A DNA stretch of 37,241 nucleotides, taken from positions 1 through 37,241 of the forward strand of contig JAJHQR010000009.1 in NCBI GenBank assembly GCA_020833255.1. The letters run 5' to 3'. The DNA is from Desulfurococcaceae archaeon. Its GTDB lineage: Archaea > Thermoproteota > Thermoprotei_A > Sulfolobales > NBVN01. The notes below the pieces were generated by a model, which was not told the DNA's origin, searched no databases, and was given only the letters and a program-made list of their open reading frames with translations. Shown here piece after piece: positions 109 to 33,775 of this stretch. The position numbers and the translations under genes were made by a program. Each line of letters opens with the position of its first letter. Position 1 is the stretch's first letter.

Positions 109-180
109 TATCAACTACGATAAAATTATAAGTATATACCGAACTCCTCTCTACTCCTGGATCCGGCTTCCCTCCAATGC

Positions 181-340
181 TGACGGCTCCCCGCCCCTCA
201 TGGCGGGGGTTCTGCACCCTCTAGGGCTTTCCCTCATTGTTCAGAGCTCCTCGCGAGCGCGGCATCACTTGCTCAGACCCCGCCGCCAGCTCCGGGGAGG
301 TGCGGGCTCATAGCCTGCTAAACTCGCCCACACCCAACAC
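181..340 (-). repeat. Element A: 160-nt structured intergenic repeat, homologous to element B; resembles an IS605/IS1341-type right end with omega-RNA-like sequence
   Basis: Ungapped hand alignment with 31686-31845 (about 30 differences in 160). Minus-strand 3' end forms a CCCCGCC/GGCGGGG hairpin and ends ..GAGCCGTCA. Confidence 0.7.
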
Positions 341-518
341 CAAACATATTATTGAGACAAAATTGAAGCAAAAAGCATATAAGCCTTCCACACACCCCCC
401 ACCCTAAAAGGAGAGGTATCCAATCGTGGTGATGAGGTTCTCGTTTCTCTATGGCGTGTGGCTTAATTACAACTATTTTTAACTATGTTCCTCAAAAATA
501 TATTGAGGGTGTATTGAG

Positions 519-1961: not shown

Positions 1962-3292
1962 TGACCGGGACTATAGAGTTGGGGAGGGAGGTAGTCAATA
2001 AGCTGAGGGCTAGTTACGACGACGTCGCGGTCCTCATAAAAACTCGTGACAGGGTTATGGTGAAGCTATGGAATACGGAACCCTCAGTAACTCAGAGCTG
2101 GATAACCACGGAAGTATCCTTGTTGTTAACTAAATCGAAGAGAGTTTTGATACTGGAGTTCTCCGTCGGCAGGCCTGAAGAGATCCTTAAAGCTGTTGAG
2201 AAGATCTCGAGCGTGGTTGAGAGGGTTGAGGAATCAGAACTCTACGCTCCCCTACCAGAACCTCAGGAAGTGAAGCTGGTTGAAGGGTCTTTCGACGCGA
2301 AAGTAATTGACGCGATGAGAGATCCCGGCAAGCTAACCAGGTTGATGATTGACGCCGCACTATCTGAGGGGGCTGAGAGAGTCGCGGGCACTCTAACCTT
2401 AAGTAACGATGAGAGAGTCCTGGTTACTAGTAAGGGGTTCGAGAACAGCGAGAGGAGAACGTTGGTTGAGGCATATCTGAGAGCGTTTAAGAAAGAGTTT
2501 AGCGGTCAGTGGGCTCACGGATCAACGCACGTGAACGAGAAAGAAATAGAGGAAGTCGGTAGGAAAGCCGGCTTATACGCCTCGATAACCAGTAATAAAG
2601 CGGACCTACAACCCGGTAAGTACGACGTAGTCCTCTCACCACTCGTGGTAGGTAACTTAATGAATTACGTGTCTTTCATGTCATCAGCGCTAGCGGTCTT
2701 AATGGGTTATTCAATGTTCATGAAGTTCAGACCCGGCGATAAGATAGCTTCAGAGAAGCTAACGCTGGTGGACACGCCCAGGGACCCCACCCTACCTAAC
2801 GTAGCTTCATTCGACGACGAGGGGGTCCCCACCTACGATAAGCCTATAATAGAGGACGGGGTCTTCCACAACCTACTCCACAACTCCGGCACTGCAACCA
2901 AGCTCGGGGTTAAATCCACGGGCAACGCCGGGTGGGTGATGCCGAACCCCTGGAACCTACGCATGAAGCCTGGAGAACTGAGGGAGGAAGAATTAGTTAG
3001 TGAGTTAAGGAACGGGGTCATAATAACCAATAACTGGTATACTAGACTGCAAAACTATGTTGAGGGCACGTTCTCGACGGTAGCGCGTGACGCGGCTTTA
3101 CTTGTTAAGAACGGTGAGGTGGTGGGCAACGTCGGTAGGGTGAGGATAGCGACGAGCTTCCCTCAACTCCTCAACAACATTGAGGAGATGACTAGGCAAA
3201 CATACGATATTATGTGGTGGGAGGTCCGGACACCTACTAGAGCGCCGTACGTGCTGGCCAGGAATGTTAACCTGACCAAACCCTACATATGA
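1961..3292 (+). CDS. tldE: TldE/PmbA family protein (TldD partner)
   Basis: 443 aa; PmbA/TldE-type C-terminal region (DDEGVPT...GVFHNLLHNSGTATKLGVKSTGNAG); no HExxxH; directly follows tldD. Confidence 0.88.
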   Translation: MTGTIELGREVVNKLRASYDDVAVLIKTRDRVMVKLWNTEPSVTQSWITTEVSLLLTKSKRVLILEFSVGRPEEILKAVEKISSVVERVEESELYAPLPEPQEVKLVEGSFDAKVIDAMRDPGKLTRLMIDAALSEGAERVAGTLTLSNDERVLVTSKGFENSERRTLVEAYLRAFKKEFSGQWAHGSTHVNEKEIEEVGRKAGLYASITSNKADLQPGKYDVVLSPLVVGNLMNYVSFMSSALAVLMGYSMFMKFRPGDKIASEKLTLVDTPRDPTLPNVASFDDEGVPTYDKPIIEDGVFHNLLHNSGTATKLGVKSTGNAGWVMPNPWNLRMKPGELREEELVSELRNGVIITNNWYTRLQNYVEGTFSTVARDAALLVKNGEVVGNVGRVRIATSFPQLLNNIEEMTRQTYDIMWWEVRTPTRAPYVLARNVNLTKPYI

Positions 3293-3299
3293 TTTTTCG

Positions 3300-6631
<3,332 letters not shown>

Positions 6632-29180: not shown

Positions 29181-31631
29181 CTACTCCAGGCACTTAACGT
29201 CTAGGATCTCGCTCAATCCTTTAAGGATTGCCAGAGCCTCAACAGCCACCTCATCTCCTCCCCCAACCCTTTCTCCCAGGCTACCCCCATACTTTTTCAT
29301 CAATAAGCATACCGTAGCTCTAGTCTTCCAGAGGTTTCTGAGGGCTGAAGAGCTCATGAAGTCTTTCAACACAGAAACGCTTTTCTCAGCGTTCCTTAAG
29401 ACACTCAAGTTATTCAAGTCTTTAACAAGCGAACGTAGTTGATTGGAGATCCCGGTATCTAACTCGCTCACCAAGTTAGGTATCTCAACACCGAACTCTT
29501 TAATCATCGTGAGGACGTCGCTTAAGCTGGAGGGGTCTAGTAACTGCTTATTAAGTAACTCACGTAGCTCGTAAGTCACGTACAACTTAATAAACTCCTT
29601 GAAGTAATCGAGAAACGGCGCCCTAGAGAGGACGGCGCTCCTCGCTATCGAGTAATTGGTTGTTAGTATTTCCTTAACCCTCCAATGAACCCTATCGAGT
29701 AGGTTGCTGAAGTAATTACTTATGATGACGTCCTGGAAATCCCTACGTAACTCACTAAAATTCTTGACCCTACTAAAGCGTTGCAACATGAACTTCTCGA
29801 GCCCTGCGAGATCGTTGCTGCTAACGTAATCTCTTAAAGCGTTATGCATAGCCCTCAAATCAAGTCCCTCAGGAGTTGTTGAAGCCCCGATCAAGACACG
29901 GCCGTTTATTGAGTGGGAATAATGAACGCATTCACTACTCTCCAAGGTCGCTAGGAACGTGATCCGAGCCTTACCGAAGGAATACTTAAGACTTCCTAAG
30001 ACGTGGGACTCACTACCTAGGTCTTCAATCAAGTAACCGAAGACTCTTCTAACGCGTTCTGAGGAACCGTTATTCAGGTTCAGCATAGAGTGTAGTATGC
30101 ATACGTCGTGAAAGTCCACGACGGCTTTCTTAACGTAACGCTCGTATATGTCCGCACCGTTCCCTAAGTCCCGTATATTGCTTCTAGCACCCTCAAGAAA
30201 CTTCAAGTACTTAGTTTCTAAATCCACGCCGGCTAACTCCTTAGCTAGTTGCATGGATCTAGCAGCGTGTTTCATGACTTGAATAGACTCAATATTAGAT
30301 ATGTCGTCGAAGAACCAACCGTCGCTGGAGAGGGCTAGGTAAGCATGCCTCATCATCTCCAGGAGCTTAAGCGCTCTTACCATGACGTCCTTGGTGACGG
30401 GGGCTTTGATTAACTTGCTTAAGTAATTAATTACTGATTCTTCGGACCCGCCCATAAACGACGCGTAGTTAAGTAAGGCGTTAAGAGGGTCTGCGAAGAC
30501 CTCACGAGATTCCTTGAAGAAGATTCCCTTGACTTCGTTGAGTAACCAATCCATAGAATTCCTGAGAGGCTTTCTCCACTCCTGACTCCAAGCCCTGTTG
30601 ACGTCTATCCTGCACCCACAGTTACTCCTCCACCTCTCGATTCCGTGCACGCAACTCCAGGAAGTATTCTCGAATATCTTGACTTCCCGCCTGGGCGGGT
30701 TAAGCTCCAGAAACTCGCCGAAGTTAGTGATTCTAGCTAGTTTCTTAGCGTTAAGATCTCTTAACGCGTAAGCGAGCGCTAAGTGACCGTACTTCTTGTG
30801 GTGCCCGTACGTCTCCCCGTCAGTAGCTATAGTGACTAGCTCTACGTCGCCTGAGTTGCTGAAAGCCTTAAGAATGTTCTTGGCGAAAGTATCCCCATTA
30901 CTCAGTAAATCACCGAACGCGACGCCGTGCGAGAGTCTTGCGTCGTAAAAGAATAAAACGATGCTTCTCCCGGAAGAGGTTTTGTAGATGTATGGTTGTC
31001 TAGTGTCTACCCTGCCACCACTCACATCTACCCACACACCGTCAGGCCCCCTCACCTCACGTGCTTGATGCGGTGCTAATACAGTGAATTTAATGCCTAG
31101 CTCCGCTAGCACGTCTAGAGTTTCATCATCTACGGCGGTCTCAGGGAGCCACATACCCTCAGGGTACCTACCGAAAGCCTCTTTAAAGACCTCTATCCCC
31201 CAGTAAGTAGCTACGTACTTATCCTCCCTACTAGCGAGAGGCATTATCATGTGGTTGTAGACTTGCGCGATGGCGGACCCATGGCCTGAGAACCTGCTCC
31301 TGCTGATGTGATCAGCTTCCACAACCGCTTCGTAGACGTCAGGTGCTTTCTCCTGAAGCCACTTAAGCAATGTAGGCCCTACGTTAAAGCTAATCCAGGA
31401 GTAGTTATTGATCACGTCGATTACTCGGCCTTCACTATCGATTATGGGAATTAAGGCGTTAGGCCTATAACACTCCTCGGTGATTCTCTCGTTCCAGTCG
31501 TGGTAGGGGTAGGCACTCTCTTCTTGAGGAATCTCGAAAAGCCACGGATCCTCTCTTGACGGTTGATAGAAATGCGCGTGAATCACCACATACTTACTCA
31601 AGCTCGACATCTCAAGCACCAGATAAACCAC
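29181..31631 (-). CDS. GH57 family glycoside hydrolase with DUF3536-like C-terminal region
   Basis: VIHAHFYQPSREDPWLFEIPQEESAYPYHDWNERITEECYRPNA; RYPEGMWLPETAVDDETLDVLAELGIKFTVLAPHQA; VTIATDGETYGHHKKYG; 816 aa. Confidence 0.88.
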   Translation of the reverse strand: MVYLVLEMSSLSKYVVIHAHFYQPSREDPWLFEIPQEESAYPYHDWNERITEECYRPNALIPIIDSEGRVIDVINNYSWISFNVGPTLLKWLQEKAPDVYEAVVEADHISRSRFSGHGSAIAQVYNHMIMPLASREDKYVATYWGIEVFKEAFGRYPEGMWLPETAVDDETLDVLAELGIKFTVLAPHQAREVRGPDGVWVDVSGGRVDTRQPYIYKTSSGRSIVLFFYDARLSHGVAFGDLLSNGDTFAKNILKAFSNSGDVELVTIATDGETYGHHKKYGHLALAYALRDLNAKKLARITNFGEFLELNPPRREVKIFENTSWSCVHGIERWRSNCGCRIDVNRAWSQEWRKPLRNSMDWLLNEVKGIFFKESREVFADPLNALLNYASFMGGSEESVINYLSKLIKAPVTKDVMVRALKLLEMMRHAYLALSSDGWFFDDISNIESIQVMKHAARSMQLAKELAGVDLETKYLKFLEGARSNIRDLGNGADIYERYVKKAVVDFHDVCILHSMLNLNNGSSERVRRVFGYLIEDLGSESHVLGSLKYSFGKARITFLATLESSECVHYSHSINGRVLIGASTTPEGLDLRAMHNALRDYVSSNDLAGLEKFMLQRFSRVKNFSELRRDFQDVIISNYFSNLLDRVHWRVKEILTTNYSIARSAVLSRAPFLDYFKEFIKLYVTYELRELLNKQLLDPSSLSDVLTMIKEFGVEIPNLVSELDTGISNQLRSLVKDLNNLSVLRNAEKSVSVLKDFMSSSALRNLWKTRATVCLLMKKYGGSLGERVGGGDEVAVEALAILKGLSEILDVKCLE

Positions 31632-31685
31632 GCGGAATTCTTTTTAATTCTTAACACCTAAGCAGCATTAAGACCGGAATCGCGC

Positions 31686-31845
31686 TGACGGCTTCTCGCC
31701 TTGAATGGCGGGGGTTCTGCGCTCTCTAGGGCCGTGCATCATTGATTATGGCCCCTCAAGAGCGCGGCATCGTTTTTCAGGCCCCCGCCGCCAGCTCCGG
31801 GGAGGCGCGGGCTCATCGCCTGCTAGACTCGCCCACACCCAACAC
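31686..31845 (-). repeat. Element B: 160-nt structured intergenic repeat, homologous to element A; resembles an IS605/IS1341-type right end with omega-RNA-like sequence
   Basis: Ungapped match to 181-340; minus-strand stem GCGCTCT..AGAGCGC enclosing GGGCC..GGCCC; decayed terminal hairpin CGCC-ATTCAA-GGCG; ends ..AAGCCGTCA. Confidence 0.7.
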
Positions 31846-31861
31846 TAAGAACGATTGTTCC

Positions 31862-33775
31862 TCAACCTCTATACTTGAGGAATAGGACGGCTAACGGAGG
31901 GAGTGTTAATACTATCGAGTGGGGTTTTCCATGGTAGGGGACTTTCTCAGTCTTCACGCCGGGCGCGTTACCGACTCCTGAACCGCCGTAAACTCTTGAA
32001 TCGCTATTCAGTATCTCTTCCCAAAAACCTTCCTCCGGCACGCCAACCCTGTACACGCTTCTCACTACCGGGGTGAAGTTAAGTATTACTAGTATCACGT
32101 CACCTCCAGAGCTCTTCCTGAGGAATGATATAACGCTCTGGTCCCTGTCCCTGAAGTCAACCCATTCGAAACCCTCGGGTTTGAAATCGAGTTCGTGTAA
32201 CGCGGGTTCTCTTCTATACGTGTTGTTGAGGTCTCTCACCCATGCCTGAAGTCCTGCGTGCTCAGGGTATTTGAGGATGTGCCAGTCGATACTCCTCTCG
32301 TGGCTCCACTCATCCCATTGAGCGATCTCGTTACCCATGAACAGCAACTTCTTGCCTGGATGTGCGTACATGTAGCCGTAAAGAAGTCTTAGATTCGCGA
32401 ATTTTTGCCAGTCATCGCCCGGCATCTTATTTATCAAGGACTTCTTACCGTGCACTACCTCGTCGTGAGATAAGGAATTAACGAAATTCTCGTAAAACAC
32501 GTACCAGACATTAAACGTCAGTATGTCGTGATGGTACTTGCGGTATATCGGGTCCTTAGACATGTAGTAGAGTGTGTCGTGCATCCACCCCATATTCCAC
32601 TTCATGTCAAACCCTAACCCGCCCTCGCTGACAGGTCTCGATACTTTAGGCCACGCACTAGATTCCTCAGCTATGGTCAGAACCCCTGGGTAGTACTTAT
32701 GGACTGCCTCGTTGAATTCTTTAATGAACTCTATAGCTTCTAGATTCTCCCTACCGCCGTACACGTTAGGCACCCACTCACCCGGTTTTCTAGAGTAGTC
32801 TAAGTAGAGCATCGAAGCAACGGCGTCAACTCGTAACCCGTCGACATGGTATTTCTCGATCCAGAAGAGAGCGTTGCTTATTAGGAAAGACTTAACCTCA
32901 CCCTTACCGTAGTCGAATACGTAGCTACCCCAGTCAGGATGCACCCTCTTCCTCCAATCCTCATACTCGTATAAGTGCGTGCCGTCGTAGAACGCCAGCC
33001 CGTGCTCGTCGGTAGCGAAATGTGAGGGTACCCAATCAACTATCACCCCTATACCGCACTCATGAAGTCTCTCAACTAAGTACATGAAGTCCTGAGGTTT
33101 CCCGTACCTGCTAGTAGGGGCGTAATACCCTACTACTTGATACCCCCAAGAACCGTAGAACGGGTGCTCCATCACCGGCAAGAACTCGACGTGCGTGAAG
33201 CCCATGTAACTCACGTAATCACACAACTTCGCAGCGAGCTCGCGGTAGGTCAAGAACCTATTACCTTCTTCTGGAACCCTCATCCACGAACCTAAGTGAA
33301 CCTCGTATATGGATATGGGGGCTTCGTAAGAATTCCTCAACGCCCTAACACGTAGCCACTCATCATCCCCCCACTCATAACTTAAGTCCCAGACGATGGA
33401 CGCAGTCTTGGGGGGTGCTTCCCACAAGAACGCGTAGGGGTCTCCCTTAAAAGCTCTGTAATCCCCGAATCTGGAGACTACGTAATACTTATACCTATCA
33501 CCTACTCTAACACCCCCCACGAAACCCTCCCAAATACCGGAACCGTCTTTACGCGGGATTAGCTTATGTGTTCCCGGCCTCCAATCATTGAAGTCCCCGA
33601 CCACGTGTACTTCAGCCGCGTTAGGAGCCCACACAGCGAAGTAAACGCCTGAAACCCCGTCAACAACTAGCGGGTGAGCACCCAACTTCTCGTAAATCCG
33701 GTAGTGTTTTCCTTCTCTAAACAAGTACACGTCGTAATCAGTAATTAAACTATACTCAACCACACCATCACTCAT
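31862..33775 (-). CDS. glgB: 1,4-alpha-glucan branching enzyme, GH13 type
   Basis: [114 protein letters not shown]. Confidence 0.95.

Follow-up and report, generated by a model that had tools for sequence, protein, structure and literature searches.

TnpB proteins are RNA-guided cutting enzymes ancestral to CRISPR-Cas12, and the acidic triad of their RuvC domain is D-E-D. Here we describe two repeats, A and B, in 37,241 nucleotides of DNA from a Desulfurococcaceae archaeon (contig JAJHQR010000009.1; this whole stretch is called the window). With a probability of roughly 0.8, judged by comparison of sequences, they are ghost copies of a small, non-autonomous IS200/IS605-type element of heat-loving archaea, the sole product of which would be a TnpB-type guide RNA (omega-RNA, also called right-end element RNA or reRNA). 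They resemble the ISDra2 system of TnpB and reRNA (PMC8612924, PMC10097598) in several respects. The RNA lies at the right end of an IS200/IS605 element, the guide is expected from the flank, insertion takes place 3' of a fixed short motif, which serves as transposon-associated motif (TAM) in ISDra2 and presumably does so here, and a pseudoknot joins the last bases of the scaffold with bases about 100 nucleotides (nt) upstream. In contrast to ISDra2, whose RNA overlaps the tnpB 3' end, the RNA is here encoded by a distinct gene that carries its own TATA box, and the effector gene is divergent or absent. The effector differs as well, having an Asp instead of the RuvC-II Glu and an AbrB-like partner gene.

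Three further systems are related. From the Fanzor ghost loci, omega-RNAs without a protein gene in the locus gave Fanzor editing in cells (PMC10432273). Like the copies described here, those loci consist of ends and an omega-RNA, lack a protein gene and outnumber the full elements. They are, however, eukaryotic (from a chytrid), their effector is Fanzor, and the Fanzor RNA is encoded after the effector gene in the same orientation, whereas the full copies here are divergent. The palindrome-associated transposable elements (PATEs) of Haloquadratum are, according to the accessible part of PMC3119063, also transposase-free archaeal IS605-derived elements with near-terminal palindromes, some of them formed by core deletion; that part describes no guide RNA, whereas a structured RNA gene is retained here. 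Finally, the sense-overlapping RNAs and omega-RNAs of archaeal IS1341 and IS200/IS605 genes (Gomes-Filho 2015; PMC12558985) are likewise RNAs of archaeal TnpB elements. They were described at tnpB genes, a position that is found here only for one distant member, L250. In the open-access literature we found no paper that links AbrB to TnpB guide RNAs in archaea and none on archaeal TnpB omega-RNAs without tnpB. Apparently new are the divergent arrangement of omega-RNA and effector, the effector family with Asp for the RuvC-II Glu, and ghost omega-RNAs in archaea.

The original prediction, made from the letters of the window, had aligned A (181-340) with B (31686-31845) over 160 nt without gaps, in the same orientation and with about 30 differences; the orientation is indeed the same and the differences number exactly 30. 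The true unit boundaries lie beyond the 160 nt, at 179 (A) and 31684 (B), where both units end in ...GTCAGC, and the RNAs of A and B correspond to the minus strand. Two things go beyond that prediction: the unit of A reaches further 5', its left end being at about 428, and includes a left-end hairpin and a TATA-like box; and a pseudoknot forms between the terminal GCCGTCAGC and the internal GCTGGCGGC. The parts of A and B are listed below; the scores come from CM R1, a covariance model built from 22 copies.

179 to 428, minus strand: element A, a putative complete ghost element of about 250 base pairs (bp), with all parts in order and TCAC just outside.
429 to 432, minus strand: TCAC motif of A, the presumed TAM, based on the sequence and the family-wide TCAC enrichment.
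397 to 421, minus strand: left-end hairpin of A (GGATACCTCTCC..GGGTGGGG), IS605-like and partly decayed, recognised by alignment with other copies.
376 to 383, minus strand: TATA-like box of A, CTTATATG, 36-43 nt upstream of the first conserved RNA base.
179 to 340, minus strand: RNA of A, a putative omega-RNA scaffold of 162 nt (CM R1 140 bits, E 3.2e-35, A being among the sequences used to build the model; covariation).
283 to 290, minus strand: pseudoknot 5' strand of A, GCTGGCGG, in the P2 hairpin loop, pairing with 179-186.
179 to 186, minus strand: pseudoknot 3' strand of A, CCGTCAGC, at the scaffold end, pairing with 283-290 according to covariation and fold.
189 to 209, minus strand: right-end hairpin of A (CCCCCGCC-ATGAGG-GGCGGGG), seen in the sequence and as helix 8 of the covariation analysis.
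159 to 178, minus strand: presumed guide of A, flanking DNA ATTGGAGGGAAGCCGGATCC, by analogy with TnpB biology.
31684 to 31845, minus strand: RNA of B, 162 nt (CM R1 137.6 bits, E 1.5e-34).
31664 to 31683, minus strand: presumed guide of B, flanking DNA GCGATTCCGGTCTTAATGCT, by the same analogy.

The minus-strand RNA of A folds at -76.0 kcal/mol (z -1.9) and that of B at -79.4 kcal/mol (z -3.7). A search of the window against Rfam gave no family above the gathering score. No open reading frame (ORF) of at least 100 amino acids (aa) overlaps A or B. The genome of the window (G000, 1.33 Mb) contains a third full copy (G000:C50:66929-67082) as well as four copies that are partial or lie at a contig edge (C21, C68, C67 and C13).

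A search of the host and related genomes with the covariance model, as had been proposed, revealed the RNA family in 29 of the Thermoproteota genomes searched. These are 16 of the 214 genomes of the order and, among 398 genomes sampled across the phylum, 19 carriers, 13 of them outside the order. Since the broad genome searches scored few candidates per genome, the copy numbers are lower bounds. Within the family of genomes to which G000 belongs, G007 has two copies and G005, evidently Zestosphaera tikiterensis, an archaeon of the Desulfurococcales in the NCBI taxonomy, has at least 17. Carriers found by an exact-pattern scan include Ignisphaera, Desulfurococcaceae, Vulcanisaeta and Candidatus Methanomethylicota.

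The suggestion that pairing kept despite substitutions reflects selection on the RNA fits the very strong covariation in the family. Across 77 copies, 29 of the 37 pairs changed on both sides, compared to 17.7 +/- 2.1 in shuffles. Standard pairs occupy 90.4% of the pair cells, compared to 36-49% when the partners are slid by 1-3 columns; because the 77-copy alignment was fitted to the model, these absolute values lean upward. A MAFFT alignment of 22 copies points in the same direction.

The pseudoknot connects the terminal CCGTCAGC with GCTGRCGG in the P2 hairpin loop, that is, model positions 151-158 with 52-59 of 158, or -8..-1 with -107..-100 relative to the guide. In ISDra2, -6..-2 are joined to -106..-102 (PMC10097598). 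Across the family 92.9% of the pseudoknot cells are paired and four of the eight pairs changed on both sides; in A the helix is also present in the minimum free energy fold. In genome G152 (locus L156) and in L250 the pairing sequences are wholly different yet complementary (AGACCTC/GAGGTCT and CACCCC/GGGGTG, respectively). By these comparisons the register matches that of the ISDra2 omega-RNA and survives complete replacement of the sequence.

The copies of Zestosphaera revealed the longer unit, which consists of a left-end hairpin (GAGGCTCCGCCTTTTAAGGTGGGGT), a TATA box, an RNA of about 158 nt, the right-end hairpin and GCCGTCAGC. A typical copy is an element of 220-260 bp without protein gene, in the order TCAC target, left-end hairpin, TATA box, RNA of about 160 nt, right-end hairpin and terminus GCCGTCAGC. 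A TTTATAA-type box is found at the same place as the box of A in most copies. The scaffold ends with GTCAGC, beyond which the flanks differ from copy to copy. A pattern search recognised the left-end hairpin in 54 of the 77 copies, and the right-end hairpin covaries in the 77-copy alignment. TCAC occurs within 22 nt outside the left end in 39 of these 54 copies, compared to 5 of 108 background windows. Copies from the same genus lose homology at nearly the same points on both sides, and the copies occupy unrelated places with unrelated 3' flanks. By their sequence the terminal hairpins are IS200/IS605-type ends, and the hairpins at both ends together with the TCAC target agree with the early guess of an IS200/IS605- or IS1341-type 3' end bearing a TnpB guide RNA. 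No gene for the Y1 transposase TnpA was found inside the elements read; one Y1 gene lies elsewhere in G000, and such a gene is present in 8 of the 20 genomes tested.

The same guess gains further weight from several genomes and a virus contig in which the RNA is linked to a TnpB-like RuvC gene. Upstream of some copies lies a divergent operon of an AbrB-like ORF of about 50 aa, followed by a gene for a protein of about 370 aa with RuvC motifs and a zinc ribbon. The effector was found in G142, G146 (two), G124 (truncated by the contig end), Zestosphaera, G152 (39% identity), G314 (two), G349 and Vulcanisaeta JCM 14467, the latter two with frame breaks, as well as in the virus contig L225 (64% identity). 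In every case where the contig includes the start of the effector gene with its flank (G142, G146, G005, G152, both of G314, G349, Vulcanisaeta JCM 14467 and L225), the RNA lies 213-241 bp from the effector on the opposite strand. The 3' end of tnpB contains the left-end hairpin in antisense orientation in G142 and in the two G146 copies. Because a few relatives and one virus pair the same RNA back-to-back with a TnpB gene, the RNA of the ghost copies looks like a guide RNA freed from its enzyme gene. In two ghost copies, L079 and L089, the left 45 bp or so are common to the full elements, the pattern that an internal deletion would be expected to leave.

The effector profile matches the ISDra2 TnpB structures in the PDB (E 1.3e-3) and aligns with local TnpBs in hhalign at 97% probability. 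It reaches 32.9 bits with PF07282 (cut-off 26.3) and 28.9 bits with NCBIfam guided_TnpB, which is under the cut-off of 100. AlphaFold2 models of the effector from 2-3 sequences were not usable (mean predicted local distance difference test, pLDDT, 42-45), and a search of named phages and plasmids found no relative of it. The AbrB-like ORF of G152 scores 21.1 bits (E 3e-4) against PF04014, under the cut-off of 24.7; the other tested copies gave no match to PF04014. In several full copies a dyad extends over the TATA box, e.g. GAGCAAAAAG-cttataaa-CTTTTTGCTC, and in other copies its arms are changed and still symmetric; tested against shuffles, the dyad reaches significance in part of the copies only. 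It may serve as operator for the AbrB-like protein as well as bidirectional promoter. Small AbrB/MazE-like ORFs also precede TnpB-like genes in L156 of G152 (1141-1326) and L168 of G067 (1017-1199), the effector of the latter being 28% identical. The AbrB-TnpB operon may thus have a wider distribution than the RNA family; the surroundings of the G067 genes gave no match to the RNA.

The virus copy is on the SMV1-like IMG/VR contig IMGVR_UViG_3300026625_000045, which also carries a 738-aa protein 80% identical to that of Sulfolobus monocaudavirus SMV1. A full element (about 2629-4100) separates two genes there that lie next to each other in SMV1, which has no insert. It was recovered by protein search; a 27-base pattern matched nothing in viral contigs.

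In the distant member L250 (effector-family protein at 27-33% identity) the RNA (E 1.1e-6) is on the same strand as the effector and overlaps its stop codon, which, as read from the sequence, is the classical place of an omega-RNA. With its ISDra2-type pseudoknot, this copy also favours a TnpB guide RNA. An overlap with a tnpB 3' end is present only here and absent for A, B and the divergent copies. At ordinary tnpB loci CM R1 gave a single strong match and otherwise weak ones, mostly to right-end hairpins. The strong match (L049 in Zestosphaera, G005:C13, 1990-2221) is a ghost copy that closely follows an ordinary tnpB, in antisense orientation. Two weak matches at TnpB gene 3' ends, on the same strand (L166 in G196, 1389-1535, and L170 in G092, 2198-2329; E 0.001-0.005), are possibly distant omega-RNAs of the same design and are not used as proof.

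The genes beside A and B are ordinary neighbours, and tnpB is not among them, as the original prediction had stated:

519 to 1958: gene for a PmbA/TldD-type peptidase.
29184 to 31631: gene for a GH57/DUF3536 protein.
31865 to 33775: gene for an alpha-amylase family protein with CBM48.

The gene pair found at B is separated in G001-G003 by just 9-139 bp of other sequence, and in G004 B is absent upstream of the alpha-amylase family gene. Elsewhere, copies of the RNA element lie head-to-head or inverted and overlapping (L120, G156:C22, about 567-730, and L253, G349:C67), and one copy (L241, G263:C9, upstream of 1647) follows, by eye, an apparent tRNA gene 3' end.

These observations would fit a parent element with the order TCAC, left end, tnpB-like and small AbrB-like genes that read towards the left end, a common promoter region, and an omega-RNA transcribed towards the right end with the flanking DNA as guide. 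Loss of both genes would leave left end, promoter, omega-RNA and right end, a ghost element of about 250 bp. Y1 TnpA supplied in trans could move it, and a TnpB-like nuclease, also in trans, could bind the RNA, taking its guide from the right flank and using TCAC as TAM. Cutting of the empty site by the guided nuclease may then help the element to persist. That A and B themselves guide a nuclease in trans is suggested by the precedent of the Fanzor ghost loci. A further step, to which we would give slightly less than even odds, is that one AbrB-linked TnpB-like effector, divergent from its RNA, serves independently moving guide-RNA genes throughout a genome (at least 17 in Zestosphaera), the omega-RNA itself being now mobile and also carried by a crenarchaeal virus.

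Several points weigh against a ghost element encoding a guide RNA. No cognate effector was found in G000 or several other carriers, including the single-contig genome G048, and G048 and G046 have no detectable Y1 transposase. Empty sites are not base-precise; in the comparison of G048 with G046 the flanks are rearranged, so that this candidate is not clean. When flanks were joined to look for interrupted genes, the only long frames were one that apparently fuses two adjacent genes and one that does not resemble a gene, and neither was used as evidence. The pseudoknot is not significant in a shuffle test of the variant rows alone (p 0.23); the argument for it draws on the changes on both sides and the wholesale replacements in G152 and L250. 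The effector family has Asp in place of the RuvC-II Glu of TnpB, and the guide-RNA reading of A and B draws on comparative sequence data.

Four tnpB genes of other types are present in G000, whereas a close relative of the AbrB-linked effector was not found. In this genome A and B may therefore be orphaned, be relics, or make use of a different TnpB. We lean slightly towards the view that copies in genomes without cognate effector, G000 included, are dead relics heading for decay. Besides the missing effector this would explain that partial copies exist and that no left end or promoter is recognisable in the sequence upstream of B. On the other hand, A and B retain the pseudoknot and most helices, A has kept its TATA-like box, and the ordinary TnpBs of G000 might use the RNA.

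It is unlikely that the RNA partners a TnpB-like protein acting as an RNA-guided DNA binder or regulator of the TldR kind instead of a nuclease. The Asp at RuvC-II is found throughout the aligned family and a small AbrB-like transcription factor is co-encoded, as such a role would suggest, but D167, D268 and D343 are acidic and invariant despite identity falling to about 28%, and the effector gene remains within a mobile element.

We consider it very improbable that the copies are plain IS605-derived miniature inverted-repeat transposable elements (or PATEs), with end hairpins as DNA signals for TnpA and an interior without RNA function. IS605-like ends and target, many copies in genomes without effector, and the PATEs known from Haloquadratum (accessible part of PMC3119063) would suit such elements. 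Covariation in the interior helices P1-P4 and in the pseudoknot, however, is as strong as in the right-end hairpin, the RNA has a TATA box upstream, and the same interior is kept beside the effector and at the L250 tnpB 3' end. Least probable of all is a regulatory role of the RNA, either in the host or as an antisense RNA acting on the tnpB/abrB operon, for although the own TATA box, divergent transcription and persistence in effector-free genomes would suit it, the copies lie in unrelated places with unrelated 3' flanks, the scaffold stops exactly at the element end like an omega-RNA, and the pseudoknot register is that of ISDra2.

Mobile ghost copies of a TnpB-type guide RNA would bear on how guide and effector genes became separated on the way to CRISPR-Cas12, with its separate genes for trans-activating CRISPR RNA (tracrRNA) and CRISPR RNA (crRNA). 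Within a single phylum one would see guide and effector overlapping in the classical way (L250), fully uncoupled and divergently transcribed, or reduced to RNA-only elements that spread by themselves. The family makes two ideas testable, namely that one effector may serve many guides in trans and that a RuvC domain with Asp at the second position may cleave.
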